From: an endosymbiont of Galathealinum brachiosum
GTDB taxonomy: Bacteria > Pseudomonadota > Gammaproteobacteria > SZUA-229
Reading direction: 5' to 3'
Assembly (NCBI GenBank): GCA_003349885.1
Contig: QFXC01000014.1
Span: forward strand, 124,001 to 188,000
DNA length: 64,000 nucleotides
In this document: positions 5,929 through 59,006 of the stretch, piece after piece
Layout of the letters: every line of letters starts with the position of its first letter
How positions within the stretch are numbered: the stretch's first letter is position 1
Notes under the pieces: generated by a model
Database searches by the model: none
Seen by the model: the letters and a program-made list of their open reading frames with translations, nothing else
Told to the model about the DNA's origin: nothing
Translations under genes and position numbers: made by a program

Positions 5929-6558
5929 CTAATGGCTCTTTATTTGCGTGAGTTTGAGAATTAGATACGCTTCTCTGATCTTTATAAACTTTAAACTATC
6001 TCCACCCTTATCTGGGTGATAAACGGTTATAAGCTGTCTATAAGACTGCTGGATATCTTTCCAGCTTGCTGATGATTTTAACCCGAGAGCATGTAACGAG
6101 TCTAACCGTTTATCTTTTGCATCATGCCACTCATGATAGTTTGTATAAGAGTCCCAGAAACTACTCAGTAACTCATCTACACCCTGTTCATCTGTAAGGT
6201 GGTAATTATCCCAGTTAAGAAAATAGTCACTCAGCGCATCATCTGTTGTTGTATTAGAATCTTCAACTGATAAATCCTGAGCATTTATTTTCAATTCTGG
6301 AATGAGCTCAATTTTTAAAGATGATATAAAAAGACTAAAACCTGAACCAGATAAATCTTTTCTCAATTGGTATAAAGCATTCATTACAACAAAATTTTTT
6401 CGAAAAAGCTTCATTTCACTGGTTTCATCAGGCTCTGATTTATTTAGAGCAAAACCAAGTTGTTCTAATATTTGCATTAACTTATATAAGCTTAATACAT
6501 CATCTGACTGCTTTAATTCATTTAAAATTGCTAATATTAATGGGTTTTCAGTCGACAT
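5929..6558 (-). CDS. DnaJ-related protein with C-terminal J domain
   Basis: 209 residues from the ATG at 6558. I prefer this start to the longer frame (to 6630) because MSTENPLIL is where resemblance to the DnaJ-related N-terminal domain begins; that domain also has the KNFVVMNALYQLR signature. The J domain is at the C-terminus (about residues 145-205), with HPDKGG carrying the HPD tripeptide that stimulates DnaK ATPase. There is no Gly/Phe or zinc-finger region, so this is a class III co-chaperone. The start overlaps the viaA stop by 11 nt (ATGTCGACTGA), strong evidence for translational coupling to ravA-viaA. The natural partner is DnaK; the client is unknown. Confidence 0.85.
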   Translation of the reverse strand: MSTENPLILAILNELKQSDDVLSLYKLMQILEQLGFALNKSEPDETSEMKLFRKNFVVMNALYQLRKDLSGSGFSLFISSLKIELIPELKINAQDLSVEDSNTTTDDALSDYFLNWDNYHLTDEQGVDELLSSFWDSYTNYHEWHDAKDKRLDSLHALGLKSSASWKDIQQSYRQLITVYHPDKGGDSLKFIKIREAYLILKLTQIKSH

Positions 6559-7942
6559 CTGAGAGATTAAATACCTGATGACAAATTTCGTTATACGCGC
6601 TCGAGTCCCACTGGCCAAGCTGAATACCAAAAATTCTTGACGGTAATTGAGTATTTAAAGCCTGGTCTATGACTTTTCTGTCAACTTCAAAACGCCCATC
6701 ACTCATTATCAATATATCCGCATTTTTCCATTGACTGCTTTTCCTTCTTTCAAGGGCTTTTACTAGAACATTATTAATATCGGTACCCCCATTAATAGAG
6801 ACGTTAAGAAACTCAAGTATAGACTTCCAGCCATGATCTAAATTTAATTCTAACTGAATAACTTCTTCTGGCCCACTAAAACAGAAAAGATGACAATCTC
6901 TTTTTTCTAAACGTGAAACTCTCATTGCTTCAAGTGCTATAGCTTTAGCTAATATGGCTGGCCTGCCTTTCATAGACGCAGAAGTATCTACACAAAGAAT
7001 CATGGGGCCTGCATGTTTAATCGATGTTTTACCCGGTATATTAATATTTATCGAATTTGTTTCTATATTAGGAATATGCTCTGATAACAAACCTTTTACG
7101 TGATAATTCAATAACTGACGTTCAGCACGTCTTACATGCCATAGCATTTTAAATCGACTATTACCTAACATTGAAAGCTCAGAAGACAGCATTTTAGAAA
7201 TATCATCACCCCGAAAAACACCTGTAATACTATTTACAGCCTGATCATCAGGTAACGCATTATCCATCTTTCTATTCTCATCTGAATATTGATTAAACCC
7301 TCTTAAATCAGTCTCGTCATAATTCCCTGATTTATTCCTGCCTATTAATTTTATGATGGATTGCAATCTTTGTGATTTTTTAATGACACGATGAACATTC
7401 ACAAGTTGTTTTAAATCAGCTTCAGAAGTTATACCTTTAGATAAATCCCAACCGAGACTACGTTGCAATGCAAAATCAACATTAATATCATTCATTGATT
7501 TATATAGTGCATTATTAACAATACCTGACTTTTCATTATTATATATGTCTTGAGTTAGACTTTTATAAGATTCATTCAGCGCACTATTATCACTTGTTAT
7601 TTCATCCTCAACATCATCTAACCAGTTAAGCACACTAATCAGAATATCATTTGTATAAGATTCGTTATCAAGTGAGTGTTTCAACAATGTTTTGTCGGTT
7701 AATTTATTATGAAAAGCATCAACAAGATCAGACTCAATCCATTTCTCTAGAGACTCTTTAGTTACCTGCTTCCCATTAATGAGATTATTTCTTATCTCAA
7801 CTATACCGGTTGCTCTTTTTTGTAAGCTATTAGACGTAGATCCATCTATCGTTGATCTGTATTGGTGTGTAATTAATCTTTTATAGATATACTCAGGTAT
7901 CTGATCAAGAACACTTAAAGATTGAAACTCTACCTTTAACAT
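6548..7942 (-). CDS. viaA: ViaA-like von Willebrand factor A protein
   Basis: 464 residues, close to E. coli ViaA (483). The VWA domain is C-terminal (about residues 308-460). Its metal-ion-dependent adhesion site is complete: DTSASMKG, then GGTD, then MSDG. The N-terminal ~300 residues are helical and family-specific. ViaA pairs with the MoxR ATPase RavA, whose gene ends 7 nt upstream. In E. coli the pair binds respiratory enzymes, including NADH dehydrogenase and fumarate reductase, and influences aminoglycoside sensitivity. The downstream J-domain gene overlaps this one by 11 nt. Here the pair follows nitrate-reduction genes, which suggests a chaperone role for that system. Confidence 0.85.
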   Translation of the reverse strand: MLKVEFQSLSVLDQIPEYIYKRLITHQYRSTIDGSTSNSLQKRATGIVEIRNNLINGKQVTKESLEKWIESDLVDAFHNKLTDKTLLKHSLDNESYTNDILISVLNWLDDVEDEITSDNSALNESYKSLTQDIYNNEKSGIVNNALYKSMNDINVDFALQRSLGWDLSKGITSEADLKQLVNVHRVIKKSQRLQSIIKLIGRNKSGNYDETDLRGFNQYSDENRKMDNALPDDQAVNSITGVFRGDDISKMLSSELSMLGNSRFKMLWHVRRAERQLLNYHVKGLLSEHIPNIETNSININIPGKTSIKHAGPMILCVDTSASMKGRPAILAKAIALEAMRVSRLEKRDCHLFCFSGPEEVIQLELNLDHGWKSILEFLNVSINGGTDINNVLVKALERRKSSQWKNADILIMSDGRFEVDRKVIDQALNTQLPSRIFGIQLGQWDSSAYNEICHQVFNLSDVD

Positions 7943-7949
7943 AGCAGCT

Positions 7950-9494
7950 TTAATTTATAGTTATTTCTTTGTGTTTTTTCTTATTCAAAGATTCATTTAT
8001 GATAAGAAGTGATTGAAGACGCTGATGATAATCAACAAGTTTTGGAACCATTAGATTAATTTCATCACTGGATTTTTTAATAAACCCTCCTGATAACCAT
8101 AAATGATCATTTTCAACCGTGTTAATTTTATTCTGAATCTTGATGAAGTTATCACATTCATATTTAACGTTATTTATAATATCAGTAAGTTCAGACCTCT
8201 GATTAACTATATAATCTTCCGAAAAATAATAAAGCTCTGTTAAGGCTTCAAAATCAATTCTATTCACCAGTCTGTTTTGAGTATTGTTAATATAATTTTG
8301 TACATCTACCCAACGTCCTTCTATATGACTTTGTTTAAAATTATCATCAAAAAACAATTCCTCAAGCTCGTTTAAAGTATATCCGGCCCCATTATTAGTT
8401 CGATCATTTTTATCTGGTGGCGCTAAAAAAAGCACCTCATTATCTCTTTCAGCCAGGCTAACACGCTCATGCTGCGTAGTTATCTTACCTTCAGGTGTTT
8501 TATACAGATTTTCTCCGCTTGAATTTGTTTTTTGCGTATACCTGGATTTGTCTTCATCAAGCTTACTTTCCCAAACTAATACGAGCTTCTCTATTCTTTT
8601 GGTCTGGTTATATATATCTAATTTCAACATTTCTATAAACCAGTTATTTAAATCCTCAATTTGATCAGGATGATTCCACATAAGATGGGTCAACAACACA
8701 CAATCCCATACATCAATAACATCTTTATTATTGGTAAAAGCACAAACCTGTAATATTTTTAGAGCTTTACGCCAACGACGATCTGAAATATAAATGGATT
8801 TATCTGATAAGTGATTGCGTAACTTTCGTAGTAATTCATGTGATTCAGCATTCAGTTTAATGCTGTTTGAATTTGATTGAATTTCATCTACATCTGAAAC
8901 ACTTAATTTTTCAAAATCAAATTGACTACTTTCAGAATCTGATGATATTTCTAACAAATCATTAAATCCGTCATTTGTGACTGGTACAACCTGATAACGA
9001 AACAAAAATCGATCGAATAGAGCATCTAAGCCCTCATCATCAGGCAACTCATTACTCGCTGCGATTACGCTTATCAATGGCACATTAACTCTTACATTGC
9101 CATTATCGAATTCTCGCTCGTTTAAAATCGTTAATAAGGAGTTAAGTATTGCACTATTAGCTTTAAATATTTCATCAATGAATGCCACACTGGCATCAGG
9201 AAGATAACCTGTTGTAAGACGATGATAACGATCATCCTCAAGCGCTTTAATAGATAATGGGCCAAAAAGCTCTTCGGGAACAGAAAAGCGAGTCAATAAT
9301 CGTTCGAAATAGTTTATATCTGTAAAAACATTACATAACTTACGTGCCAATTCACTTTTTGCTGTTCCTGGTGGACCTAGAAGCAGTAAATGCTCTCCAC
9401 TTAATGCGGCCAGTAAAGACAGACGAACAGGAACAGAGCGCTCTATTAATGTCGACTCGATATATGAAAAAATATTTTTTAATTTTGTTTTCAT
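7950..9494 (-). CDS. ravA: RavA-like MoxR-family AAA+ ATPase
   Basis: 514 residues (E. coli RavA has 498). Walker A is GPPGTAKS (about residues 40-47), Walker B FIDEIFK, sensor 1 AASNELP, and sensor 2 lies in SDRRWRKAL. RFSVPEELFGPLSI and LTTGYLPDA are RavA/MoxR hallmarks. The C-terminal ~220 residues correspond to the RavA-specific helical and LARA-type region, here diverged, so binding of lysine decarboxylase is doubtful. It starts 42 nt after rspA with no clear Shine-Dalgarno (ATTTAAAA before the ATG). It acts in the cytoplasm with ViaA as a hexameric remodelling ATPase. Its position after the nitrate genes is the notable point. Confidence 0.85.
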   Translation of the reverse strand: MKTKLKNIFSYIESTLIERSVPVRLSLLAALSGEHLLLLGPPGTAKSELARKLCNVFTDINYFERLLTRFSVPEELFGPLSIKALEDDRYHRLTTGYLPDASVAFIDEIFKANSAILNSLLTILNEREFDNGNVRVNVPLISVIAASNELPDDEGLDALFDRFLFRYQVVPVTNDGFNDLLEISSDSESSQFDFEKLSVSDVDEIQSNSNSIKLNAESHELLRKLRNHLSDKSIYISDRRWRKALKILQVCAFTNNKDVIDVWDCVLLTHLMWNHPDQIEDLNNWFIEMLKLDIYNQTKRIEKLVLVWESKLDEDKSRYTQKTNSSGENLYKTPEGKITTQHERVSLAERDNEVLFLAPPDKNDRTNNGAGYTLNELEELFFDDNFKQSHIEGRWVDVQNYINNTQNRLVNRIDFEALTELYYFSEDYIVNQRSELTDIINNVKYECDNFIKIQNKINTVENDHLWLSGGFIKKSSDEINLMVPKLVDYHQRLQSLLIINESLNKKKHKEITIN

Positions 9495-9536: not shown

Positions 9537-9908
9537 TTAATGCTCGCCCTTAGGCTTTCTAACACCAGCAAGACGATTACCCTGCTTCTGCGGACCACCT
9601 AATGGGAATATTTTATGTAAATATCGGGTATTTCCTTTTTCTTTTCCCCAAACTTTTTTAAAATGTTTAATCATGTCTCGTACAGGTGCCTGAACATTAT
9701 TCTGTTCATAGTAATCACGTATATAATTTATAATTTCCCAATGCTCGTCAGTTAACTGAAGCTCTTCAAAATCTGCACGTACCTGCACAAATTCCTCAGA
9801 CCACTGATCAAGATCTAACAGGTAACCCTCACCATCTAACAATATTTCTATCCCGTCAACCACGGTTGTCTGGGTTTGCATATTTGGGTAATAAATCTTT
9901 CCGGCCAT
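9537..9908 (-). CDS. DsrC/TusE-family protein lacking both C-terminal cysteines (RspA type)
   Basis: 123 residues. The fold signature is clear: VDGIEILLDGEGYLLDLDQWSEE at the N-terminus, LTDEHWEIINYIRDYY, then LHKIFPLGGPQKQ. In DsrC the C-terminal arm carries two redox cysteines and in TusE one. Here the arm reads QGNRLAGVRKPKGEH, and the protein contains no cysteine at all, so it cannot carry persulfide. Cysteine-free members have been called RspA and are thought regulatory. It has a good RBS (AGGAATTGTT-ATG) and lies 31 nt after the DmsBC-like gene and 42 nt before ravA. A role as a protein-protein docking or regulatory subunit of the nitrate system is inference. Confidence 0.85.
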   Translation of the reverse strand: MAGKIYYPNMQTQTTVVDGIEILLDGEGYLLDLDQWSEEFVQVRADFEELQLTDEHWEIINYIRDYYEQNNVQAPVRDMIKHFKKVWGKEKGNTRYLHKIFPLGGPQKQGNRLAGVRKPKGEH

Positions 9909-9939: not shown

Positions 9940-11772
9940 TTAATGCGCATCGGCAATAATGCCGGCCTGCACGGTATTCGCTAAACCTGTTTCACGAGCA
10001 TGCTCTTCAAAACCTTTATTTTTCCAGAAGAAGGCTCCTGGCATCGTTGTTGGTACTACCATCACATAAAACATTGCTCTACTAATTAAAGATGATGCCA
10101 GTACGCTTAATACCAGTAGCACCCAGAGCGCCATTATGATGGGTGATGGACTGGTTACAAACATTAAAGACGCAACCACTAATATGTTTGTAAATAACAT
10201 AGCCAGCCTTAACAAATTCGTCTTACCAAATGTTGTAACCTGCTCGTAATAAGAAACAGCCCCTTCACGTCCCTTCACATTTAAATGTTTAGCGTGAAAA
10301 TAATGACCTACAGCTTCTATCATCAAACCAATAAACATAAGGCCGGCTACTAACTGCAACAAACCAGATACTGACTGATTGCCATACAGTAAAACCGGTA
10401 CAAAGAACAAACCTGTAATCAAAGAACCGAGTGAAATCATATTTCCATAAAAAGCAGTAAGAACCTGCCAGTGATTCCAGAAAGGGCGTGCCTCTATTCG
10501 ATATATTTTATGCATAAAATATATCGCTATCGGACCGGAAACTGCTGCTGCATATGCAAAAAACACTGAAGCCTGCCCGACTATTTCATAACCACCCATT
10601 TCTGTATATACAAGCGAAGCCAGAAAGTGAGCACCCAGACTATTAAAGAAAACAGCTATGCCCGCTACTTCACGACTCACCGGAGAATATTTAAGATTAT
10701 TAAATGCTCTATAAAAACGCAATGGTTTACCTAAATGCATTGTTGATAAGAATAAAGCAATCGCCTCTAAACCAAGCATGACAAATAACATTGGTAAATA
10801 AGCAGAAGAATTGACAATTTTCTGAATAGATTCAATCCCAGCAAGATTGCCAATAAACATCAGTAAAAATGCACCTATCACAGCTTGTGATACGAGTGTA
10901 AATATAACTAGAGGATCTTCACGTGAGCGTAATTTATCCAGATTCCAACTACGCTTAATACCTTTCTTTTTATCAACAACCGGTTCAAATACACCCGTAT
11001 CTATATCTTTATGATACTTAACGGCCATACTATCAGTGCGGGTCATTTCATTAGGCATATCACGTGTCTGTTGAAATCGTATATTCGGATTTGTTATATC
11101 TGTACGAGGAAAGCCAGGTATTTCAACTTTTGCCTGCTCTCTCTTTTCAGGTGTATTTTCAATAACACCAAAATTCAATGCATTACCTAAGCATGCTGAT
11201 ACACAAGCCGGCTTCAAGCCAACTTCAAGACGATCAACACACATATTACATTTACTAACCTGTCCTTTTACCGGATCGAGCTGAGGTGCGTTGTAAGGAC
11301 AAACCCAGGTACAATAACCACAACCAAAACAGATATCTGAATCCTGTAATACCGCACCATACTCAGCAAATTTTGTATACGCACGTGTTGGGCAACCTTT
11401 TAAACAAACCGGGTCATCACAATGATTACAGGCCATTGAAATATTCAGGCGTTTAAAATCAGGATAAGTTCCACCTTCAACATAACCTACAGACCTGAAT
11501 GCAATATGCGCCGGGTTATCATTCTTTTCACTACAGGCTGCTTCACATGCATGGCAACCTATACAGTTATCTGCCGTAAAATGAAAGCCATGCTGTTTAT
11601 AACGATTTGGATTTTCACCCACAGCCGAATTTAAATTAATATTCAGTGATTTTCCATGAAGCTCACTAGTATGATCAACCGTTTGAATAGGTTTACCATA
11701 ACAGTTGGTTTCTTTCATGGTTTCGTCATTCAGAAATGCGTATTGGGGTTCGTCGTTTCTTACCTGGAACAT
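9940..11772 (-). CDS. Fused DmsB-like ferredoxin and DmsC-like membrane anchor
   Basis: 610 residues. Residues ~60-205 hold four cysteine groups for four [4Fe-4S] clusters: CIGCHACEAAC, CNHCDDPVCLKGC, CFGCGYCTWVC and CNMC...CVSAC. Residues ~285-590 form about eight membrane helices of the DmsC family, which takes electrons from quinol. Separate DmsB and DmsC are the usual arrangement, so this is a fusion. It follows the NarB-like catalytic gene by 70 nt and has no Tat signal, so the electron-transfer domain should face the cytoplasm. The likely role is to pass electrons from menaquinol or ubiquinol to the cytoplasmic nitrate reductase, replacing the NADH- or ferredoxin-dependent partners normal in assimilation. 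Confidence 0.85.
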   Translation of the reverse strand: MFQVRNDEPQYAFLNDETMKETNCYGKPIQTVDHTSELHGKSLNINLNSAVGENPNRYKQHGFHFTADNCIGCHACEAACSEKNDNPAHIAFRSVGYVEGGTYPDFKRLNISMACNHCDDPVCLKGCPTRAYTKFAEYGAVLQDSDICFGCGYCTWVCPYNAPQLDPVKGQVSKCNMCVDRLEVGLKPACVSACLGNALNFGVIENTPEKREQAKVEIPGFPRTDITNPNIRFQQTRDMPNEMTRTDSMAVKYHKDIDTGVFEPVVDKKKGIKRSWNLDKLRSREDPLVIFTLVSQAVIGAFLLMFIGNLAGIESIQKIVNSSAYLPMLFVMLGLEAIALFLSTMHLGKPLRFYRAFNNLKYSPVSREVAGIAVFFNSLGAHFLASLVYTEMGGYEIVGQASVFFAYAAAVSGPIAIYFMHKIYRIEARPFWNHWQVLTAFYGNMISLGSLITGLFFVPVLLYGNQSVSGLLQLVAGLMFIGLMIEAVGHYFHAKHLNVKGREGAVSYYEQVTTFGKTNLLRLAMLFTNILVVASLMFVTSPSPIIMALWVLLVLSVLASSLISRAMFYVMVVPTTMPGAFFWKNKGFEEHARETGLANTVQAGIIADAH

Positions 11773-11842
11773 AATTTTTCTTCAGTCTTTTTAATTCACA
11801 TTGTCATTGCCGAAAGCATGTGTCGGAAATAACGTATTTTAG

Positions 11843-14026
11843 TTAATATTCTCGTGCTTCAACATTACGTTTAGCTGCTTCTACCTGATCAACCAGTTCA
11901 ATACGAACTGCATTTTGTTTAAATGCAGGCTGACGTGAATGTGGATCCAATAAGCCAAGTGTTAAACGATTTACGCAATCATGAAAATGAAAGGGTATAA
12001 ACACCATGTCCCTGGGAATTCTCTGCGTTAACTGAACCATTACAACCGCATCACCACGGCGTGAAACACAACGTACATATGACTGATGCTCGATACCCAG
12101 TTCAGCTGCTGAATCAGGATTCATCTCCATGTATGGAGTTGGTGAAAATTTATTCTGATTGCCTATCTTTCCTGTACGAGTACGCGTATGAAAATGCTCT
12201 ACTACACGACCTGAATTTAACCAGAACGGATATTCTGTATCAGGACGCTCATTATTATCTACAAACGGCAACGGAATAATTTTGGCCTTACCATCGGGAT
12301 ACGGAAACTTTCCATCACTGTACAGTCGCTGAGCACCTTTCTCATCACCTTCACGACAGGGCCACTGTAACCCACGATTTTTTTCAATTTTTTCGTAACT
12401 CATTCCTGAAATATCTAAATTACGATCTTTACCTTTAGATAGCTCTTTCATTTCTTCAAACATGTCTTCCGCATTATCAGAAAACTTCATTTTTAATCCA
12501 TTTTCAAAACGTTTGGCTAAATTACTGAATATCCATAAATCAGGTTTTGAGTCTGCATAAGGTTTAGAGACATTTGATACTCTGTTCACTCGACGCTCTG
12601 TATTGGTAAAGCATCCTTCTTTTTCTGCCCAGATTGCAGCTGGTAAATACATATGCGCATATTGAACAGTTTCAACATCTTCATAAGCGTCCTGAATAAC
12701 AAGAAAATCAAGTTTCTCCAGTGTCTTACGAATACGTGCTGTATTAGGCATAGATGTCATGGGGTTAGTTGCAACCAGCCACAGACCTTTAATTTGACCT
12801 GTTTCAATTGCAGGAAAAATATCTGTTTGTGCCAGACCTCTTTGCTTGGGTAAAAACTCAGGATCAATTCCCCAGTAATCTGCAATTTCCTGACGGTGAT
12901 CTGAGTTTTCTAATGCACGATAACCGGGTAAACCTGAACATGAAGACCACTCACGTGTCCCCATTGCATTACTTTGTCCGGTAATAGATAAACTTGTTCC
13001 ACCCTCTTTACCGATGTTTCCAGTAATCAGGTTTAAATTATTAATACCCACTACGCCATCTGAACCATGTGTACTCTGGTTAATGCCCATCGTCCAGATA
13101 GACATCGCCTGACCTGCTTTTGCATAAAGACGAGCAACATGACGAATTGTATCTTCATCAATGCCACAAACTTTTGAAGCTGAAACCGGATCATATTCTT
13201 CTACAATGGCAGTAAACTCCTCCATACCATTTGTATTTTTTTCTATGTAATCCATATCAGCAAGATTTTCATTGATAATGACGTGCGCTAGAGAGTTTAA
13301 CAACACAACATCTGTTCCGGGGTTAATTGCCAGATGCATATCCGCAAATTGAGCCAGCATGGTCACGCGCGGGTCAACTACAATTAGAGGAAACTTTCGC
13401 TTCTCCATTGCTTCTTTTAAACGCCAGTAAATAATCGGATGTTGTTCTGGAAGGTTAGAACCAAATGCAATTAAACAATCTGTTTTTTCAAAGTCTTCAT
13501 AACAACCGGGAGGACCATCAGAACCGAAAGATCGTTTATAACCGGAAACAGCTGATGCCATACAAAGCGTTGTATTGCCATCATAGTTATTAGTGCCAAT
13601 AGCACCACGTGTTAATTTCCCTAAGGTATAAAATTCTTCTGTAAGAATCTGACCAGTAGACACGACAGCAAATGCGTCACGACCATATTTTTCCTGAATT
13701 GTTTTAATTTTATCTGCCATGGTATCCAGAGCTGGATCCCATTCTGTTTCTCGATACTCATCAATCGTTGAATTACGCACAATTGGTTTTTTGCCACGAC
13801 CTTCTGTTTTAAATAATTCGTGTTCAAAAATTCCTTTAATACAAAGCTTGCCACGATTTACATCCGCACCACCAACACCACGCGAAGAAACCGCCTGGCC
13901 ATCACCATTAATTCCTACTTCAATAGAACAACCGGTTGAACAATATCCACAGGTTGTATACTTCCATTCAACTACACCTTTATCTGCAATTTTAATGGGA
14001 TTTTTTTTGTTACGGCCGAATAACAT
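11843..14026 (-). CDS. Assimilatory nitrate reductase catalytic subunit, NarB/NasA type
   Basis: 727 residues, the length of cyanobacterial NarB (about 715-730) rather than the longer enterobacterial NasA with its extra C-terminal Fe-S domain. The N-terminus binds one [4Fe-4S] cluster through CGYCSTGC...GKLC. NTTLCMASAVSGYK contains the expected molybdenum-ligand Cys of the Nas/Nap branch. GTNNYDGN, DPRVTMLAQFAD and GINQSTHGSDGV are molybdopterin-binding blocks. The C-terminal dinucleotide-binding barrel ends with FHFHDCVNRLTLG. There is no Tat signal, so it is cytoplasmic. It sits between nirD and the DmsBC fusion. Formate dehydrogenase-type activity is possible in this superfamily, but the nirBD-narK context favours nitrate. 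Confidence 0.87.
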   Translation of the reverse strand: MLFGRNKKNPIKIADKGVVEWKYTTCGYCSTGCSIEVGINGDGQAVSSRGVGGADVNRGKLCIKGIFEHELFKTEGRGKKPIVRNSTIDEYRETEWDPALDTMADKIKTIQEKYGRDAFAVVSTGQILTEEFYTLGKLTRGAIGTNNYDGNTTLCMASAVSGYKRSFGSDGPPGCYEDFEKTDCLIAFGSNLPEQHPIIYWRLKEAMEKRKFPLIVVDPRVTMLAQFADMHLAINPGTDVVLLNSLAHVIINENLADMDYIEKNTNGMEEFTAIVEEYDPVSASKVCGIDEDTIRHVARLYAKAGQAMSIWTMGINQSTHGSDGVVGINNLNLITGNIGKEGGTSLSITGQSNAMGTREWSSCSGLPGYRALENSDHRQEIADYWGIDPEFLPKQRGLAQTDIFPAIETGQIKGLWLVATNPMTSMPNTARIRKTLEKLDFLVIQDAYEDVETVQYAHMYLPAAIWAEKEGCFTNTERRVNRVSNVSKPYADSKPDLWIFSNLAKRFENGLKMKFSDNAEDMFEEMKELSKGKDRNLDISGMSYEKIEKNRGLQWPCREGDEKGAQRLYSDGKFPYPDGKAKIIPLPFVDNNERPDTEYPFWLNSGRVVEHFHTRTRTGKIGNQNKFSPTPYMEMNPDSAAELGIEHQSYVRCVSRRGDAVVMVQLTQRIPRDMVFIPFHFHDCVNRLTLGLLDPHSRQPAFKQNAVRIELVDQVEAAKRNVEAREY

Positions 14027-14159: not shown

Positions 14160-14471
14160 TTATTTTACTTCAACGAAAATACTTCCGTTTTCAATTTTAG
14201 TAGCAAAATGTCCTGTACAACCTTCATCAGGACCTAATGCTTCACCATTAGTTAAATCAATTTTCCAGTTATGTAACGGACAAGTTACAGATTGACCGTG
14301 CACAATACCCTGAGATAACTTGCCCTGCTTATGAGGGCAGGAATCTGTTACAGCAAAAACTTCATCGTTGTTATTACGGAAAACAGCAATATCTACATCA
14401 CCATTTTTAACAACACGGGCACCCAATACAGGTATATCTTCTACTGATCCTACTTCTATCCAATTTGACAT
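14160..14471 (-). CDS. nirD: Nitrite reductase small subunit, Rieske-type
   Basis: 103 residues, the usual NirD length. It is a single Rieske-like domain with CPHKQG and CPLHNW, which supply the Cys and His ligands of a [2Fe-2S] cluster; some NirD proteins lack these ligands, this one keeps them. It partners NirB in NADH-dependent reduction of nitrite to ammonium in the cytoplasm. It lies 61 nt after nirB. The next gene in the operon is the nitrate reductase, after a gap holding two hairpins. Confidence 0.92.
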   Translation of the reverse strand: MSNWIEVGSVEDIPVLGARVVKNGDVDIAVFRNNNDEVFAVTDSCPHKQGKLSQGIVHGQSVTCPLHNWKIDLTNGEALGPDEGCTGHFATKIENGSIFVEVK

Positions 14472-14532: not shown

Positions 14533-16971
14533 TTAACCGATTACTTTTAATGGAGTGAACTCATGCGCATCAACGCCTTTAGTTGAACGTTCAGTCCATG
14601 GATCTTCCTGAGATCGAGTAATTTCCTGTGAGAACTTAAATCTTTCAGCAAGTTCTTTACGTTTTTCAGCATCATCAACGATGCTTTCTTTAACGTAAGT
14701 AAAACCAACTCGTTCAATCCAGGGAGCAGTACGTTCCAGATAACGTGCTTCTTCACGATATATCTGACAGAAAGCTGCTGCGTACTCTAATACTTCTTCT
14801 TCAGTATCAACCCTGGTTAATAAATCAGTTACGCGTACATGAATACCGCCATTACCACCGATATGTAATTCGTAACCTGAATCAACACAAACCACACCGA
14901 AATCTTTAATCGTTGCTTCTGCACAGTTACGAGGACAACCAGATGCTGCCATCTTAAATTTATGAGGCATCCAGGAACCCCAGCTTAATTGCTCAAGCTT
15001 GATACCAATACCAGTTGAATCCTGCGTACCAAAACGACACCAGTCTTTACCAACACAGGTTTTAACTGTACGTAAAGCTTTACCATATGCATGACCTGAA
15101 ACCAGGCCTTCATCATTTAAATCTTTCCAGATTAAAGGCAGCTCTTCTTTCTTAACACCGTATAAACCAATACGTTGACCACCGGTTACGTGAACCGTAT
15201 CTAAATCAAATTTTTCAGCAACATTTGCAATCGCACGTAACTCTTTAGGTGTAGTCATACCACCCCACATACGTGGAATAACTGAGTAGGTACCATCTTT
15301 CTGAATGTTTGCGTGAGCACGCTCATTAATGAAGCGTGACTGGTAATCATCTTTCGATTCTTCAGGCCATGAACTTATTACATAATAGTTAACCGACATA
15401 CGACAGGCCGCACAGCCATCATCATTTTTCCAGTTAAGCTTTTTGTAAACATCACTAATTGAAGTTAGTTTCTGTTTGCGAATCTGTTCACGCACATAAT
15501 CATGAGTATGATCAGTACAACCACAAATTGGTTTAGCCTCAGGTGCTGCATAATCACCACCTAAGGTTGTTTCTAATATTTGTTCAACTAAACCGGTACA
15601 TGAACCACAAGAAGAAGATGCTTTTGTATGAGCACGAACATCATCTAATGTGAATAAACCTTTAACCGTAATTGCGTTAACAACATCACCTTTAGTAACA
15701 CCATTACAACCACAAATTTCAGCATCATCAGACATGTTAGCAACAACGTTACCACCGTGACCTGAATCTCCCAGGTGACCCTGCCCAAACATTAATGCAT
15801 CACGAATATCAGTGATATTTGTACCTTCACGCATTAACTGGAAGTACCATGAACCATCAATCGTATCGCCATATAAAACTGCACCAAGAATTTTTTCATC
15901 TTTGATTACAATCTTTTTATAAACACCACGACTTGCATCACGTACTACTATATCTTCTGTTGTTTCATCACCGATGAAATCACCCGCAGAAAACAAATCA
16001 ATACCCGTAACTTTTAATTTTGTAGAAGTGACTGTACCGGTGTAAATACCAATACCGTATTCAGCAAGATGGTTTGCACAAACCTTAGCCATTTCGAACA
16101 ATGGAGCAACTAAACCATAAACCATGCCACGGTGCTCAATACACTCACCAATCGCATAAATTTTTGGGTCATAAGTTTGTAATGTATCGTTAACAACAAT
16201 ACCGCGTTCACAATGCAAACCAATTTGTTTAGCCAGTTCTATGTTAGGGCGAATACCCACTGCCATTACAATTAAATCTGTTTCAATTTCAGTGCCATCA
16301 GCAAAAACTATTTTCTCTACTTTGCCATCACCCTGAATTTCAGAAGTAGAAGTTTTCATTCTAAACTTCATACCCTGCTCTTCTAATGAGTTCTTTAACA
16401 TCTCACCAGAAATATCATCCATCTGGCGTTCCATTAACCAGTCCATTAAATGAATAACAGTTACATCCATACCCTGCTTCATTAAACCGTTTGCCGCTTC
16501 TAAACCTAAAAGACCACCACCAATGACAACAGCACGTTTTTTAGATTTAGACACATCAATCATCGTGTCTACATCTTTTATGTCACGGAAGCCGATAACA
16601 CCGGGAAGATCATGACCGGGAACAGGAATAATAAATGGATCTGAACCGGTTGAAATCAATAAACGATCATACTCAACCGTTGTGCCATCATCAGCAGTAA
16701 CCGTACAGGCTTTACGGTCTACATCAGTAACCTTCACACCTTTATGTAAAGTGATGTTGTTTTCTTCATACCATGGCAAATCATTCAACATGATTTCATC
16801 AATTTCTTTTTCCCCACATAAAACAGGAGATAAAAGGATACGGTTATAATTTCCGTAAGGCTCCGCACCAAATACAGTTATCTCATATTTGTCTGGTGCA
16901 ATTTCCAGCAGTTCTTCAACGGTACGCATACCCGCCATACCATTACCAATAACGACTAGTTTTTCTTTCAT
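14533..16971 (-). CDS. nirB: NADH-dependent assimilatory nitrite reductase large subunit
   Basis: 812 residues from the ATG at 16971. The longer frame begins with a TTG at 16995, but GGAG lies 7 nt before the ATG at 16971, which decides the start. Order of parts: FAD/NAD(P) oxidoreductase domain (1-~300, VVIGNGMAGMRTVEE and VVIGGGLLGLEAAN), two BFD-like [2Fe-2S] regions (CGCNGVTKGDV...CGSC), then the sulfite/nitrite reductase half-domain and the sirohaem/[4Fe-4S] site with TCVGKDWCRFG and SGCPRNC. It makes ammonium from nitrite with NirD. First gene of a minus-strand operon with a sigma54-type promoter about 45 nt upstream, implying nitrogen control. Confidence 0.93.
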   Translation of the reverse strand: MKEKLVVIGNGMAGMRTVEELLEIAPDKYEITVFGAEPYGNYNRILLSPVLCGEKEIDEIMLNDLPWYEENNITLHKGVKVTDVDRKACTVTADDGTTVEYDRLLISTGSDPFIIPVPGHDLPGVIGFRDIKDVDTMIDVSKSKKRAVVIGGGLLGLEAANGLMKQGMDVTVIHLMDWLMERQMDDISGEMLKNSLEEQGMKFRMKTSTSEIQGDGKVEKIVFADGTEIETDLIVMAVGIRPNIELAKQIGLHCERGIVVNDTLQTYDPKIYAIGECIEHRGMVYGLVAPLFEMAKVCANHLAEYGIGIYTGTVTSTKLKVTGIDLFSAGDFIGDETTEDIVVRDASRGVYKKIVIKDEKILGAVLYGDTIDGSWYFQLMREGTNITDIRDALMFGQGHLGDSGHGGNVVANMSDDAEICGCNGVTKGDVVNAITVKGLFTLDDVRAHTKASSSCGSCTGLVEQILETTLGGDYAAPEAKPICGCTDHTHDYVREQIRKQKLTSISDVYKKLNWKNDDGCAACRMSVNYYVISSWPEESKDDYQSRFINERAHANIQKDGTYSVIPRMWGGMTTPKELRAIANVAEKFDLDTVHVTGGQRIGLYGVKKEELPLIWKDLNDEGLVSGHAYGKALRTVKTCVGKDWCRFGTQDSTGIGIKLEQLSWGSWMPHKFKMAASGCPRNCAEATIKDFGVVCVDSGYELHIGGNGGIHVRVTDLLTRVDTEEEVLEYAAAFCQIYREEARYLERTAPWIERVGFTYVKESIVDDAEKRKELAERFKFSQEITRSQEDPWTERSTKGVDAHEFTPLKVIG

Positions 16972-17016
16972 GTGCTGACTCCATAGATGGGGCAAATTTG
17001 TAATTGCTTGTGATAA

Positions 17017-17032
17017 TGCACATTACATGCCA
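17017..17032 (-). promoter_or_regulatory. Sigma54-type promoter of nirB
   Basis: Minus-strand TGGCATGTAATGTGCA has GG, exactly ten bases, then GC, and fits TGGCACG-N4-TTGCW except for the T at the fifth position and the G starting the -12 element. It predicts a transcript starting near 17006 and a leader of about 35 nt before the nirB ATG. Confidence 0.7.
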
Positions 17033-17283: not shown

Positions 17284-17300
17284 TGCACCTTTAATGTGCA
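17284..17300. promoter_or_regulatory. NtrC-like enhancer site near narK
   Basis: TGCACCTTTAATGTGCA is a 17-bp dyad with both outer arms (TGCAC, GTGCA) intact, matching the NtrC consensus at 14 of 17 positions. Its centre is about 98 bp upstream of the predicted narK start. Confidence 0.65.
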
Positions 17301-17363: not shown

Positions 17364-17379
17364 TGGTATTAACATTGCT
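17364..17379 (+). promoter_or_regulatory. Sigma54-type promoter of narK
   Basis: TGGTATTAACATTGCT has GG, ten bases, GC, and an intact TTGCT -12 element; the -24 element is TGGTA instead of TGGCA. The predicted start is near 17390, about 29 nt before the narK ATG. Confidence 0.65.
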
Positions 17380-17418
17380 TAAACAACAACAAATTAAAAC
17401 TTTCAGGACAATTTGCAA

Positions 17419-18888
17419 ATGAGCGCTTCTAACGGCATCAAGATATTATCATTCAGCGGCAATACACGGATATTACACTTATCATGGATTGCATTTTTTA
17501 TTACGTTTGTAATCTGGTTCAACCACGCCCCACTACTGGCTGCAATGCGAGAAACAATGGGACTGACCGACCAGCAGATTAAAACCCTGTTAATACTAAA
17601 CGTCGCATTAACCATACCCGCACGAATAATTATTGGAATGCTTGTCGACAGCTTTGGGCCGAAACGTATTTATTCCTTCCTGTTAATGGTATCCGCCCTG
17701 CTCTGTTTTGGTTTTGCTGCAGCTCAAAATTTTGAACAACTGGCTATTATGCGTTTCTTACTCGGTTTTTCCGGTGCGGGTTTTGTAATTGGTATTCGTA
17801 TGATTTCTGAATGGTACCCGGCTCGTCAGGCTGGTATTGCTCAGGGCATATATGGTGGCTGGGGCAACTTTGGCTCGGCCGGTGCAGCTATAAGCCTTCC
17901 AACCATTGCATTATTATTCGGCGGTGATGATGGATGGCGTTATGCTGTTGCCAGCACAGGCGTTCTGGCGTTTGTATATTCATTTATCTACTACTTCAGT
18001 ACACACGATACACCCAAAGGCTCCACCTACTTTAAACCGAAAAAAAGTGGTGCACTGGAGATTTCAAGTAAAAAAGATTTCGTTTTATATCTGATAATGA
18101 ATATCCCCATGTATGCAGCACTTGCTGTTCTTACCTGGAAATTAAGCCCATCTAATATCAATATGCTGGAAGCCGGTGTAACAAATACTATTTACATCAT
18201 ATTAGCCTCTCTATACCTGTTTCAGGCATTTCGTATGTATCAGGTAAACGCACATGTATTTAAAACCGAAGTACCAGAAATTGAGCGTTATGAGTTTAGT
18301 CAGGTAGCCGTGCTTAACCTTGCTTATATGGTTACCTTTGGTTCCGAACTCGCTATTATTTCAATGTTGCCTTTGTTCTTTATGGATACATTTAATCTAT
18401 CACCAGCAGGTGCCGGTCTGGTTGCTTCCATATTTGCAGGTCTTAATCTAATTATGCGTCCTGCAGGCGGCTGGATTTCAGACAAGTTTGGCCGTAAACG
18501 CAGTCTGGTTGTCATTATGTTTGGCCTGATACTCGGTTATGCAATGATGAGCCAGATAGATGCAAGCTGGTCTTTACCAATGGCTATTGTCGTCACTATT
18601 TTCTGCTCACTATTCGTTAATGCAGGTAATGGTGCTGTATTTGCAGTTGTTCCATTAATCAAACGTCGCCTTACCGGGCAAATAGCCGGTATGACAGGTG
18701 CTTACGGTAATGTAGGTGGTGTAACCTTTCTGACTGTACTGTCATTTGTATCTTCCGAAATATTCTTTCTAGTTATTGGAGGAGCAGCTATCTTTGTTTT
18801 CCTTGCAACTGTATTAATACTGAAAGAGCCCTCTAACAAAATGACAGAAGTACTACCGGATGGAACAGTTCAGGTAATTGAGACTTAA
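17419..18888 (+). CDS. narK: Nitrate/nitrite transporter of the MFS NNP family
   Basis: 489 residues from the ATG at 17419, which has AGGA about 10 nt upstream; a TTG six bases earlier is too close to it. About twelve membrane helices. The nitrate signature GGWGNFGSAGAA lies in helix 5, and its counterpart TGAYGNVGGVTF in helix 11. Arg residues in helices 2 and 8 regions (IPARIIIG, MRPAGGW) match the nitrate-binding arginines of the family. It imports nitrate for the divergent reductase operon and shares its regulatory region. It is NasA-like in role, NarK-like in sequence. Confidence 0.9.
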   Translation: MSASNGIKILSFSGNTRILHLSWIAFFITFVIWFNHAPLLAAMRETMGLTDQQIKTLLILNVALTIPARIIIGMLVDSFGPKRIYSFLLMVSALLCFGFAAAQNFEQLAIMRFLLGFSGAGFVIGIRMISEWYPARQAGIAQGIYGGWGNFGSAGAAISLPTIALLFGGDDGWRYAVASTGVLAFVYSFIYYFSTHDTPKGSTYFKPKKSGALEISSKKDFVLYLIMNIPMYAALAVLTWKLSPSNINMLEAGVTNTIYIILASLYLFQAFRMYQVNAHVFKTEVPEIERYEFSQVAVLNLAYMVTFGSELAIISMLPLFFMDTFNLSPAGAGLVASIFAGLNLIMRPAGGWISDKFGRKRSLVVIMFGLILGYAMMSQIDASWSLPMAIVVTIFCSLFVNAGNGAVFAVVPLIKRRLTGQIAGMTGAYGNVGGVTFLTVLSFVSSEIFFLVIGGAAIFVFLATVLILKEPSNKMTEVLPDGTVQVIET

Positions 18889-19123: not shown

Positions 19124-20833
19124 ATGACCAACCAACTAAAAATAAATGTAGCCCAAAGCTCGGATGCAGGCATAAAAGACCATAATGAAGACTCTTATGG
19201 CATTGTCACTCCTGAGGGCCAACTGCTTGAAAACAAGGGCATTAGTGCAATTGTTGCAGATGGCATGGGTAGCTGCGCCTTTCCCAAAGAAGCGTCTGAA
19301 TATGTTGTAAAAGGTTTTTTTAGTGATTACTACAGCACACCCGAGAGCTGGACGGTTAAAACATCAGGCGCAAAAGTGCTTACTGCTTTAAATAGCTGGC
19401 TCTATGGCAAAAGCACCGATGAACATGCAAAAGCCTATGTATCTACGTTTTCTGCTTTGGTCATCAAATCAACTACTGCACATATCTTACATATTGGCGA
19501 TAGCCGTATTTACCGTCTTCGTGATGGCAATATCGAACAACTCACAAATGATCATCGAATCTGGATTACCAAAGAAAAAAATTACCTGAGCCGCGCAATG
19601 GGTGTAGACCTACACCTTGATATCGACTACAAAACGGTTGATCTTGAAGTTGATGATGTATTTGTAATGACAACAGATGGTATTCACGACTACATGCAGG
19701 ACCAGCAAATTAAAGACGTTGTTAGCCAGTCTGCAAATATGAATGTATTAGCCGATAAAGTAATTAGCACAGCTCTTTCCCAGGGCAGCCATGACAATGT
19801 CACCTGTCAGATCATCCATATTGAACAGCTACCAAATCAGCAGGCCAACGAAGTTATAAATGACCTGATACGCCTGCCGTTTCCACCCGACCTGTCACCC
19901 GGTATGATCATAGATGGCTATAAAGTCATTAAAGACTTTCATTCCAGCTCAACTTCCCAACTTTATCTGGTAGAAGATACGGAAACAGAGAAAACAATGC
20001 TGATGAAAACACCATCAGTTAACTATGATGACGACCCATCTTATATTGATCGTTTTCACATGGAAGAATGGGCGGGTAAGCGGGTTTATAACCCGAATGT
20101 AATGATCACTTACGAACAGAAACGCAAACGAAGTTGTCAGTATTTTTTAATAGAGCATGTTGAAGGCATTACATTAGCCGAATGGATTACGCAAAACCCG
20201 AACCCGGATATTAAACAGGTTACAAAAATCATTGACCAGTTAATTCATGGGTTACGTGGACTGCATCGCCTTGAAATGTTACATCGCGATCTCAAACCAG
20301 ATAATATAATGATCAAGGAAGATGGAAGCATAAAGATAATAGATCTGGGCGCTGTTAAAGTCGCTGGTATTCAGGAGATTTCTTCACCTGTTGAGCGCCT
20401 TGAACTACTCGGCACAAAAAACTACACCGCACCAGAATACCTGATGGGCGTAGCCGGGTCTAACAAATCAGACCTGTTTTCACTGGGTGTTATCGCATAC
20501 GAAATACTCACGGGAAAACTTCCCTATGGAGATCAGTCAGATAAAAACATCGACTGGCGATCTATAAGCAAAATCAGATATACCTCCTCCCTGAAACACA
20601 ATCCCATGATTCCATTATGGCTTGATGGCGCCATTGAGAAAGCAGTACGTATTGACCACAGATTACGCTATGACAGCTTCTCAGAATTTTATCACGACCT
20701 GACACACCCTAATGAGTCATTTATGAAACACAGCCTTCCTCTGGCTGAAAAAGACCCGTTAATATTCTGGCGTTCTATTTCTGTTATTCTATTAATTAGC
20801 AATTTGATTCTGCTTTACTTATTTATAAAATAA
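19124..20833 (+). CDS. Fused PP2C-type phosphatase and Ser/Thr protein kinase
   Basis: 569 residues. Residues 5-245 are a PP2C domain with NEDSYG, VADGMGS, ILHIGDSRIYR and HDNVTC, which bind the two metal ions. Residues 265-525 are a eukaryotic-like kinase: MLMKT (ATP-anchoring Lys), HRDLKPDN (catalytic loop) and DLG in place of DFG. A single membrane helix closes the protein (about 548-567), so both domains are cytoplasmic. It lies 235 nt after narK. The same fused protein sits beside nitrate-assimilation genes in Pseudomonas, so a role in post-translational control of nitrate uptake or reduction is likely, but its target is unknown. Confidence 0.88.
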   Translation: MTNQLKINVAQSSDAGIKDHNEDSYGIVTPEGQLLENKGISAIVADGMGSCAFPKEASEYVVKGFFSDYYSTPESWTVKTSGAKVLTALNSWLYGKSTDEHAKAYVSTFSALVIKSTTAHILHIGDSRIYRLRDGNIEQLTNDHRIWITKEKNYLSRAMGVDLHLDIDYKTVDLEVDDVFVMTTDGIHDYMQDQQIKDVVSQSANMNVLADKVISTALSQGSHDNVTCQIIHIEQLPNQQANEVINDLIRLPFPPDLSPGMIIDGYKVIKDFHSSSTSQLYLVEDTETEKTMLMKTPSVNYDDDPSYIDRFHMEEWAGKRVYNPNVMITYEQKRKRSCQYFLIEHVEGITLAEWITQNPNPDIKQVTKIIDQLIHGLRGLHRLEMLHRDLKPDNIMIKEDGSIKIIDLGAVKVAGIQEISSPVERLELLGTKNYTAPEYLMGVAGSNKSDLFSLGVIAYEILTGKLPYGDQSDKNIDWRSISKIRYTSSLKHNPMIPLWLDGAIEKAVRIDHRLRYDSFSEFYHDLTHPNESFMKHSLPLAEKDPLIFWRSISVILLISNLILLYLFIK

Positions 20834-23030: not shown

Positions 23031-26000
23031 ATGCATTATTTTTTTAACCTGAACAAATACATAACACTATTTATTTTAAGTATTCTGTTTACCTCCCCCG
23101 CTCATGCAGTTATAGACCTCCAGTCATCAAGTGATACCTGGGCTGAAGTTCTAGTTGGTAATAATTTTGATCCTGGCCAGGATACGCAGGCAGTTGCCGC
23201 GGTAGATTTAACCGGTTTTGGTACCACTCCCCTGTTTTACATGAAGTATGACGATAGTGGAACTCCAGCAGACACATCTGATGATGAAGTCGCCTTTCGT
23301 TTTCGCGCAGATCATGCCGTTGATAATAAGGGTGAGTTTGACGGTTATATCTGGATTGGTCTGGATGTAGACAGTGATAATGACATAGATGCTTTTATGA
23401 TGTTAGTAGGTAAAAGCGGGGTTTATAATGTCGATGTATATGATGCAGGAAATGGCACAAACACGTCACCCAGCACAACCGATATTAATTCTGCTTCTAT
23501 TACGCCTGTCACAGCAGGCTTTACTTTTGACCATAACCTAATCACAACAATCGATGCGACAGGCACTGCAGATCTTGATGGCGATACAGAACTGGACTAC
23601 CTGATAAGTTATAAAGTGAATTTCGATGCACTTGCTACCGCTCTTAACGCATTAACATTAACTGGCTCTAACCCTTCAGCTACAATCTCTACACTCAATT
23701 CAAATGCAGGCATGACAGTCGACACTGCGTTTCAACTTGTTGTTGCAAGCGCACAAAACGCAAACACACTTAATGGAGATATCGGCGGTTACGATGATAA
23801 AGCCGATGATCTAACCGTTTCTTTTGCAAGCAAAGGCGCTTTCTCCAGTGGTTTAAGTTTCTCAAATCCGGAACCCGCTATTGCCGATTTAACTACCAGC
23901 CTGATCACAGCAAGTATTTTATCAATAGAAGCCAATGGCTCTTCAACATCCACTATTACGGTACAGTTAAAAGATGAAAATGGTATTAATCTGACATTAG
24001 GTGGCGATACAGTTACATTAAGCACAACACTCGGTTCACTTGACACCGTTAGTGATAATAATAATGGAACATATAGCGCGATATTAACAAGCTCTACAAC
24101 AAGTGGCTTAGCTACAATTACCGGAACGATAAATACCAACAATCTTACCGATACTGCATCTGTTACATATACACCAGGTGCGGCAACTACCACTACAAGT
24201 ACAGTTTCTGCCAGTAGTGCATCCATTACAGCCGATGGTACATCTACATCAACAATCACTGTTCAACTTATAGATACAAACGGAAACAACCTTAATAACG
24301 GTGGTGACGCAGTAACGCTTTCAACAACATTAGGCTCACTAGGTTTAGTTACTGATTTAAATAATGGTACATATCGCGCTGTACTTACAAGTGGTACAAC
24401 AACCGGAACAGCGATTATTACCGGCACATTAAACACTCAGGATATTGATGATAATGCCTCTGTTATCTTTAACGCTGATATTGTCTCGCAAAATACCAGT
24501 ATAATTTCTGTTAGTAATAACACTATAGCTGCAAATGGTATTTCAACTTCTATCGTAACCGTACAACTTAAAGATAGTAACGGCAATAATCTCAGCACTG
24601 GTGGTGACACTGTAGAATTAAATACAACGCTAGGCACATTAAGTTCAGTAACAGATGAGCTAGATGGTAGCTATACAGCAACATTAACCAGCTCTATCAT
24701 TGCAGGTACAGCAACGATTACCGGATTAGTAAATAGTAATTCTATTACAGATAATGCCACCGTATCTTTTTTTGTTAGTGCTGCATCAGCAACAACTAGC
24801 CTGATTACTGCTAGCATTTTATCTATTAATGCTGATGGAACATCAACATCATTAATAACCGTTCAGCTTAAGGACATTAACGGAAACAACCTAAGCAGTG
24901 GCGGCGATACAGTCGTACTTGATACAACTCTCGGTAATCTTAGCGCTGTAACTGATAAATTAAATGGCACCTATGAAGTAACGTTAACCAGCGCCACTAC
25001 GGTAGGAACTGCGACGATTACAGGTACTTTAAATGGCGCCTCAATTACAGATGATGCAACGGTTGCTTTTACAGTTGGTTCAGCCGTAATAACAACCAGT
25101 GTAATTTCTGCTAGCATTAATTCAATATCGGCAGATGGAACAAGCACTTCAATCATTACCGTACAGTTAAAAGATGCTAACGGCAATGTACTTAGCAGCG
25201 GTGGTGATTCTGTTTTACTAAATACCACATTGGGCAGCTTAGGGTTAGTAACAGACCAATTAGATGGTACATATCGCGCCACTTTAACCAGTGGTACTAC
25301 AGCTGGAAGCGCAACAATTACAGGCACATTAAATGGAAATGCCATTAGTAATAATGCCAGTGTAGTTTTCATTTCAATACTGGATACAGACGGTGACGGA
25401 ATTATTGATGACATAGATATTGATGATGACAACGATGGCATACCAGACTCGCTCGAAGGTGATGGAATAACCGACAGTGATGGTGACGGTATAGTTGATA
25501 GCCTTGATCTTGATAGTGACAACGATGGTATAACTGATTTAATGGAGTCAGGTATAACAAACCCTGAGTCACTCGATACAGATAACAATGGTCAAATCGA
25601 TACTGACAACCCTGTCGGCACTAACGGATTAGCTGATATTATTGAAACCACAATAGACTCAGGCATTGTTAATTACAATAATGGTAACACCATAGATACT
25701 GATGGGGATGGTGTTGAAGATTTCCGCGACCTTGATAGTGATAACGATGGCATACCTGATGTTACGGAAGCAGGTGGAAACGATTCTGATAACAATGGAA
25801 TTATTGGCACAGGCACACCTGTTGTAGACAGTAATGGACTTCCATCAGCTTTAATTACCTCACCTACAGATACTGATGGTGATGGCATTCCTGATCACCT
25901 GCAACTCGATTCTGATGGCGATGGCATCTCTGACCTGATCGAAGGCGGTGGCACCGACAGCAATGATGATGGAAAGGTCGACGGTTTTACTGACAATAAC

Positions 26001-58948: not shown

Positions 58949-59006
58949 TTTTAGTAGTACTGATTGTAGTACCATGGCAGTATCACTAAAACTGGTACTA
59001 CTAAAA
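58949..59006. repeat. 12-bp perfect inverted repeat upstream of and touching the integrase start
   Basis: TTTTAGTAGTAC (58949-58960) and GTACTACTAAAA (58995-59006) are perfectly complementary. A third GTAGTAC lies between. The right arm ends on the first base of the integrase ATG. It could be an operator for self-repression or integrase/excisionase arm sites. Confidence 0.6.

Follow-up and report, generated by a model that had tools for sequence, protein, structure and literature searches.

The window, the whole stretch of 64,000 nt that was analysed, contains an open reading frame for a short NasA and, just downstream of it on the same minus strand, one for a DmsBC-type fusion protein. These two genes lie beside nirD, nirB, and a divergent narK, with a nirB-narK intergenic region that holds the candidate control sites (Table 1). 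The ATG at codon 9 of nirB is a likely alternative start. No leader RNA was found by an Rfam search.

Table 1. Genes and predicted control sites of the NasA-DmsBC locus, given as positions within the 64,000 nt window
Feature	Positions	Strand	Basis
DnaJ-related protein, end of the gene run holding the MoxR/VWA genes	5929-6630	-	PF12339, PF00226
ViaA/CoxE-like VWA partner of the MoxR ATPase	6548-7942	-	PF05762; PRK10997 below cut-off
RavA-like MoxR AAA+ ATPase, possible activase	7950-9494	-	PF20030
DsrC/TusE-like protein without any cysteine	9537-9908	-	PF04358/TIGR03342
DmsBC-type fusion, 610 aa	9940-11772	-	Pfam, alignment, DmsC H65/E87 equivalents, topology, AF2 TM part, Foldseek
Short NasA, 727 aa, predicted cytoplasmic Mo-bisPGD nitrate reductase catalytic subunit	11843-14026	-	Pfam/NCBIfam, motif, tree, homologue identity
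NirD, Rieske-type small subunit of NADH nitrite reductase	14160-14471	-	TIGR02378, 94 bits, above cut-off
NirB, large subunit of NADH nitrite reductase	14533-16995	-	TIGR02374, 944 bits, above cut-off
Weak sigma-54 promoter candidate TGGCATGTAATGTGCA, 2 mismatches, towards nirB-nirD-nasA-dmsBC	17017-17032	-	Family-wide enrichment
Predicted NtrC site TGCACCTTTAATGTGCA, 1 mismatch, nirB-narK intergenic	17284-17300		
Weak sigma-54 promoter candidate TGGTATTAACATTGCT, 2 mismatches, towards narK	17364-17379	+	Family-wide enrichment
NarK-family nitrate/nitrite transporter, divergent from nirB	17413-18888	+	TIGR00886, 335 bits, above cut-off
PP2C phosphatase - Ser/Thr kinase fusion	19124-20833	+	Pfam, gene context

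The short NasA has the Mo-bisPGD domains by Pfam, FS0 cysteines at C26, C29, C33, and C62, and the Mo-site motif LCMASAVSG, which is of the Cys-Met, nitrate reductase type. C155 is invariant in the homologues, and identity across 31 of them is 69-91%. The cytoplasmic location, Cys-Met motif, N-terminal FS0, and linkage to NirBD and NarK are as in the classical NasA, NasC, and NarB enzymes, however identity to these is about 35-40% and the short NasA forms a separate clade with support of 100/100. The proteobacterial BFD-type NasA are also longer, at about 870-900 aa, and end in a BFD [2Fe-2S] domain, whereas PF04324 has no match in the 727 aa protein. The preliminary description of this DNA had noted a NarB layout and no Tat signal. 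No twin-arginine motif is present at the N-terminus, MLFGRNKKNPIKIADK, and the resemblance to the ferredoxin-type cyanobacterial NarB (about 710-730 aa, FS0, no BFD, no Tat) holds for length and domains only. The protein is of its own clade in a tree that contained no cyanobacterial NarB. NapA differs in being Tat-exported to the periplasm with NapB and NapC partners; the short NasA is separate from it in the tree and has no Nap partners in its operon.

The fusion protein has a conserved N-terminal extension, a four-[4Fe-4S] ferredoxin domain at approximately aa 60-235, an 8-TM DmsC-like anchor, and a conserved C-terminal tail. The ferredoxin domain matches PF13247 (dicluster ferredoxin; aa 112-203) and the anchor matches PF04976 (DmsC; aa 285-569) at 88 bits against a cut-off of 22.3. 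All 16 cluster cysteines (70/73/76/80, 115/118/123/127, 148/151/154/158, and 175/178/190/194) are invariant in 37 homologues, bearing out the earlier claim that a four-cluster ferredoxin and a DmsC-like membrane anchor are joined in a single polypeptide. Anchor residues H346 and E368 align with H65 and E87 of E. coli DmsC and are likewise invariant in 37 sequences. E. coli DmsABC is similarly composed of a Mo-bisPGD A subunit, a four-cluster B subunit, and an 8-TM C anchor carrying H65/E87, with 37% identity between the B parts. It differs in being a Tat-exported, periplasm-facing S/N-oxide reductase with separate B and C subunits. The TM part of the AF2 model has a PsrC/ActC-like fold by Foldseek. 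As the alignments are shallow and highly conserved, with pLDDT below 50 for aa 1-238 of the fusion, including its Fe-S domain, and a NasA model of moderate quality, the structural claim is restricted to the TM fold.

The distribution of charged residues in the anchor is the opposite of that in E. coli DmsC. There are 24 K/R in the loops on the Fe-S side and 1 in the opposite loops of the fusion, compared with 17 and 0 in SoeC and 2 and 7 in E. coli DmsC. This SoeC-like bias places the Fe-S domain and the catalytic subunit in the cytoplasm by topology prediction, in support of the cytoplasmic-side placement proposed previously. For SoeABC, the prediction is likewise of an inverted anchor with an N-side-facing quinone site (PMC8076601), and the charge bias of the fusion agrees with such an arrangement. 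SoeABC of Allochromatium vinosum and Aquifex aeolicus also has no Tat signal, a four-cluster B subunit, and a DmsC/NrfD-like anchor, but it has separate B and C genes and a catalytic SoeA rather than NasA, and it passes electrons from sulfite oxidation to quinone. A distinct gene in the source genome encodes SoeA, which is about 25% identical to NasA over part of its length.

The fusion is found in 46 of 274 sampled Gammaproteobacteria genomes, and 45 of these 46 also have the short NasA (Fisher p of about 5e-48, not corrected for kinship). The three mismatches in co-occurrence (G067, G273, and G187) are contig-end truncations. NasA lies directly upstream of the fusion in 72 of 80 named contigs, with a contig edge cutting another 6. 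Co-occurrence and adjacency to this degree exclude a chance pairing. In G015 both genes are retained even though they are unlinked. Genomes with NasA and no fusion were considered and rejected, every such case ending at a contig edge. No full-length fusion was found in plasmid collections. Across the loci the pair tightly adjoins the NirBD, NarK, and PP2C-kinase genes, and the fusion is the sole redox partner encoded beside NasA, as had been described.

These features support the mechanism put forward in the preliminary description and suggest that NasA-DmsBC is probably a cytoplasm-facing quinol:nitrate oxidoreductase that feeds NirBD assimilation under NtrC/sigma-54 control. NasA and the fusion would form a two-protein complex at the cytoplasmic surface of the membrane, with quinol being oxidized by the DmsC-like domain close to that surface. 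From there, electrons would pass by way of the four [4Fe-4S] clusters in the DmsB-like domain to the NasA FS0 and on to the Mo centre, where nitrate would be reduced to nitrite. Nitrate would be imported by NarK, and the nitrite reduced to ammonium for assimilation by the NADH-dependent NirBD, with NtrC and sigma-54 turning on the operon under low nitrogen. The quinol step would be electroneutral and may save one of the four NADH otherwise required per nitrate.

The same complex could instead act in dissimilatory nitrate respiration with quinol as donor, the nitrite being removed by NirBD. A quinol-linked cytoplasmic nitrate reductase adjoining narK and nirBD does recall the anaerobic set of E. 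coli, in which the quinol-linked, cytoplasm-facing NarGHI works with NirBD, and certain of the hosts are sulfur oxidizers of low-oxygen sites. However, predicted NtrC sites are present in 16 of 24 unique nirB-narK intergenic regions, at about 28 times their rate elsewhere in these loci, and predicted sigma-54 sites in 18 of the 24, at about 55 times their own rate elsewhere. FNR and NarL/P control were rejected, as FNR sites in these regions are at background (0.18 per kb, against 0.22 per kb elsewhere) and NarL/P sites are at chance level. Strong enrichment of NtrC and sigma-54 sites, together with the lack of any FNR signal, supports nitrogen control of the system and therefore an assimilatory role, as predicted from this locus before. 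In addition, the hosts, which also include Burkholderiales, number among them methanotrophs, Methylophaga, Spongiibacter, and Zhongshania, all of which are aerobes, and the source genome has a separate NapA. A dissimilatory function is thus unlikely.

It is less likely again that the anchor is purely structural, the DmsC part holding NasA near the membrane while a soluble ferredoxin or an NADH:ferredoxin system feeds the four-cluster domain. To our knowledge, the donors of characterized Nas are all NAD(P)H or ferredoxin/flavodoxin, and soluble ferredoxins are possible donors here. The donor types in PMC7331816 may be compared. Against this, the quinol-site residues of the anchor are invariant, whereas loss of quinone function should relax H346 and E368. 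The NasA-DmsBC operon has no NAD(P)H flavoprotein partner. A separate NADH- or ferredoxin-dependent subunit elsewhere, which the preliminary description had named as a possible refutation, was tested for in part: when a NasB-type flavoprotein (PF18267) was sought in the source genome, NirB was the sole match. The fusion system is not the sole nitrate reductase of that genome, which also encodes a classical BFD-type NasA (L003, 900 aa), a Tat-exported relative, and a NapA. Because of the classical NasA, deletion of the fusion gene might leave growth on nitrate, which would weaken the proposed growth test in this organism rather than the mechanism.

That the catalytic subunit is a formate dehydrogenase passing electrons to the quinone pool, prompted by its highest NCBIfam score (formate dehydrogenase alpha, 590 bits, below the cut-off of 666; NasC gives 531 bits, below 1100) and by a position near FDH in the tree with modest support (94/88) and long branches, is very improbable and was rejected on the Cys-Met motif, in contrast to Cys/Sec-His in FdhF, and on the gene's location in nirBD-narK operons. 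In one genus (G157 and G268), moreover, the single PF00384 protein and only molybdopterin oxidoreductase is the short NasA, and an 844 aa frame for a NirB-size sirohaem reductase is also present.

In textbook nitrate assimilation, the first two electrons come from NADH or ferredoxin. The quinol:nitrate oxidoreductase proposed here, with its distinct NasA clade and one-piece, inverted DmsBC, probably adds a third class, by electron donor, to the assimilatory nitrate reductases, beside the NAD(P)H and ferredoxin types of classical NasA, NasC, and NarB (PMC7331816). It would be NtrC-controlled and cytoplasm-facing. About one-sixth of the sampled Gammaproteobacteria genomes would carry it, among them those of Burkholderiales, methanotrophs, and sulfur oxidizers, and at least one genus would have no other nitrate reductase. 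Its gene content has the CISM architecture of a Mo-bisPGD subunit, a four-[4Fe-4S] subunit, and a quinone-binding integral anchor, in contradiction to the survey that describes Nas, Nap, and cytoplasmic FDH enzymes as without canonical four-cluster and anchor subunits (PMC7331816). The combination of NasA and DmsBC is absent from the 2020 and 2021 family surveys, and no prior description was found in the open-access literature. We rate it as a widespread new variant of a kind already known. NarGHI of Mycobacterium tuberculosis, as cited in PMC11636981 from Malm et al. 2009, is likewise a quinol-linked, cytoplasm-facing nitrate reductase used with NirBD for assimilation, but its NarG is of another family, its NarI anchor is a di-haem cytochrome b, and it is a dual-use respiratory enzyme.

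Nitrate assimilation in many aerobic, sulfur-oxidizing, or methane-oxidizing bacteria appears to begin with an enzyme wired directly to the membrane respiratory electron pool. If quinol is the donor, nitrogen assimilation would be tied to the respiratory chain, and NADH would be spared in bacteria whose electron input is at or close to the level of quinone, such as methanotrophs and sulfur oxidizers. Surveys of metagenomes in which nasA is taken to be NAD(P)H- or ferredoxin-dependent would then assign the wrong electron source in many Gammaproteobacteria. NasA and DmsBC are a simple gene pair for genetic testing.

Other neighbours of the pair recur. The PP2C-kinase fusion gene adjoining narK is kept in many of the loci, and the cysteine-free DsrC/TusE-like gene directly downstream of the fusion is a recurrent neighbour. 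Of 80 loci, 14 have the RavA-like MoxR ATPase close to the fusion and 11 the ViaA/CoxE-like VWA gene.

The full-length DmsBC-type fusion is present in 46 of 274 evenly drawn Gammaproteobacteria genomes and the short NasA in 47 (68–94% identity, with the next relatives at ~40%), both occurring together in 45. In the three mismatch genomes (G067, G273, and G187) a gene is cut by a contig end, and G015 retains both genes, though on different contigs. Across 80 named fusion contigs, NasA is immediately upstream in 72, lost to a contig-edge cut in 6, and separated by a larger gap in 2 (L118 and L166). Named hosts include Methylobacter, Methylomonas, Crenothrix, Methylophaga, Cycloclasticus, Spongiibacter, Zhongshania, Oleiphilus, Moritella, Polaromonas, and Ramlibacter. 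Only 6 of 398 genomes in a phylum-wide sample have the fusion, which is therefore concentrated in the Gammaproteobacteria in the GTDB sense. A non-fused B-C pair taken from the class-wide matches (G127, L190) is, by gene context, part of a SoeABC operon.

Both reading frames lie where the preliminary description placed them, and ferredoxin and anchor are indeed a single polypeptide. Upstream of the short NasA gene are nirD and nirB on the same strand, with narK and a PP2C-kinase fusion gene divergent from them.

Features of the window discussed in the text
Feature	Position	Strand	Basis or remark
RavA-like MoxR ATPase, ViaA-like VWA protein, DnaJ-related protein	5929-9494	-	downstream of fusion
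DsrC/TusE-like protein	9537-9908	-	zero cysteines; adjoins fusion on downstream side
DmsBC-type fusion, 610 aa: DmsB-like four-cluster ferredoxin and DmsC-like anchor	9940-11772	-	PF13247, PF04976
Short NasA, 727 aa, Mo-bisPGD oxidoreductase	11843-14026	-	domain matches
Predicted NtrC site	17284		one mismatch; nirB-narK region
PP2C phosphatase - Ser/Thr kinase fusion	19124-20833	+	beside narK; conserved in many such loci
1699-aa protein	23031-28130	+	invasin/Big_1 repeats, C-terminal OmpA domain
Phage-type tyrosine integrase	59006-60250	+	near right end

In a tree of 34 sequences, taking in no cyanobacterial NarB, the short NasA forms its own clade (support 100/100) separate from BFD-type NasA, NapA, and FdhF; long branches leave its deep position uncertain. 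At the Mo site the protein has the motif LCMASAVSG, as expected of Nas/Nap enzymes; FdhF has Cys/Sec-His there. The first Foldseek match of a moderate-quality model is D. desulfuricans NapA. The best NCBIfam score is to Fdh-alpha, under that model's cut-off, and annotation pipelines may therefore misname the protein. The window's genome also encodes a classical 900-aa NasA (L003), NapA (L002), and SoeABC (L006/L071). A further relative in this genome, a Tat-exported 826-aa molybdoenzyme (L004, G000:C13:100049-102307), has 40% identity to the short NasA and groups with Deinococcus and Staphylococcus proteins, not NapA.

All 16 cluster cysteines of the fusion are invariant in an alignment of 37 sequences, as are H346 and E368, which align with H65 and E87 of E. 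coli DmsC. The latter residues reportedly matter for menaquinol or HOQNO binding, according to the Weiner laboratory. Eight TM helices are well predicted in the structure model, with a fold matching NrfD/PsrC/ActC. The loops facing the Fe-S side contain 24 K/R and those opposite contain 1, a bias in the same direction as in SoeC of the window's genome (17 versus 0). By the positive-inside rule, this points to a cytoplasmic Fe-S domain, in agreement with the missing Tat signal; the placement proposed in the preliminary description thus holds at the sequence level. In contrast, E. coli DmsC (2 versus 7) has the opposite orientation to that predicted for the fusion.

Predicted NtrC sites are present in 16 of 24 unique nirB-narK intergenic regions and predicted sigma-54 sites in 18, usually one per direction. 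Compared with the rest of the same loci as background, and with a shuffle control also run, NtrC sites occur at 4.62 versus 0.166 per kb and sigma-54 sites at 2.93 versus 0.053 per kb. FNR sites in the 24 regions are at background level, with no enrichment. The window has, besides its NtrC site, two weak sigma-54 candidates, one towards narK and one towards nirB. G157 and G268 are two genomes of one genus, with completeness of about 97% each; their sole PF00384 protein is the short NasA, and an 844-aa, NirB-sized sirohaem reductase frame is also encoded. Together, the site enrichments, the FNR background level, and this gene content argue for nitrogen assimilation as the logic of the operon.

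The short NasA operon encodes no redox partner other than the fusion, as had been proposed. A separate NADH- or ferredoxin-dependent subunit, the alternative raised beforehand, was sought as a NasB-type flavoprotein; the profile search of the window's genome found none apart from NirB. A DmsC-type anchor naturally takes its electrons from quinol, which is the putative donor here. Electron transfer to nitrate (+0.43 V) runs downhill from either ubiquinol or menaquinol, and the step should be electroneutral because the quinol site would share one side with nitrate reduction. One NADH of four would be spared per nitrate, and hosts oxidizing sulfide, methane or hydrocarbons would be supplied with reductant without reverse electron flow. 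Classical BFD-type NasA is found in the same operon or neighbourhood at nine loci (L073, L076, L077, L078, L098, L116, L127, L132, and L136), alongside the short NasA and, where the contig reaches that far, DmsBC. Such loci would appear to combine two nitrate reductases that draw on different donors.

The function has a precedent, since Malm et al. in 2009 reportedly described quinol-linked nitrate assimilation by NarGHI and NirBD in M. tuberculosis (as cited in PMC11636981). The apparent novelty lies in how the system is put together, with an enzyme of the Nas clade paired with a DmsBC module that is inverted and in one piece, under predicted NtrC control; no earlier description of such a pairing was found in the open-access literature. 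The architecture would be of the CISM type, its catalytic subunit a Nas enzyme, and the putative complex would work like SoeABC in reverse. A 2020 survey has the Nas/Nap/cytoplasmic-FDH clade without four-cluster and anchor subunits of this kind (PMC7331816). The consulted passages of a 2021 review give SoeC as the one inverted representative of the NrfD-like family and name no nitrate reductase among the NrfD-like complexes (PMC8076601).

Several neighbouring genes recur. DsrC-like genes, of two recurrent types, are on 13 of the 80 fusion contigs, and none of the proteins adjoining the fusion keeps the penultimate cysteine; the cysteine-free protein is possibly an Rsp-type regulator tied to nitrate assimilation. 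RavA-like (14 of 80 contigs), ViaA-like (11 of 80), and DnaJ-related proteins also recur downstream and, by analogy with NorQD, CoxDE, and CbbQO, may act in activation or assembly of the putative NasA-DmsBC complex. In 8 loci a conserved protein of ~130 aa is directly downstream of the fusion (e.g. L104:11006-11407, L112:11031-11414, and L116:10931-11317), the L104 copy having no Pfam match. Elsewhere in the window, the 1699-aa protein is a predicted inverse-autotransporter-like or cell-wall-linked surface protein, and the integrase possibly marks an integrated element.
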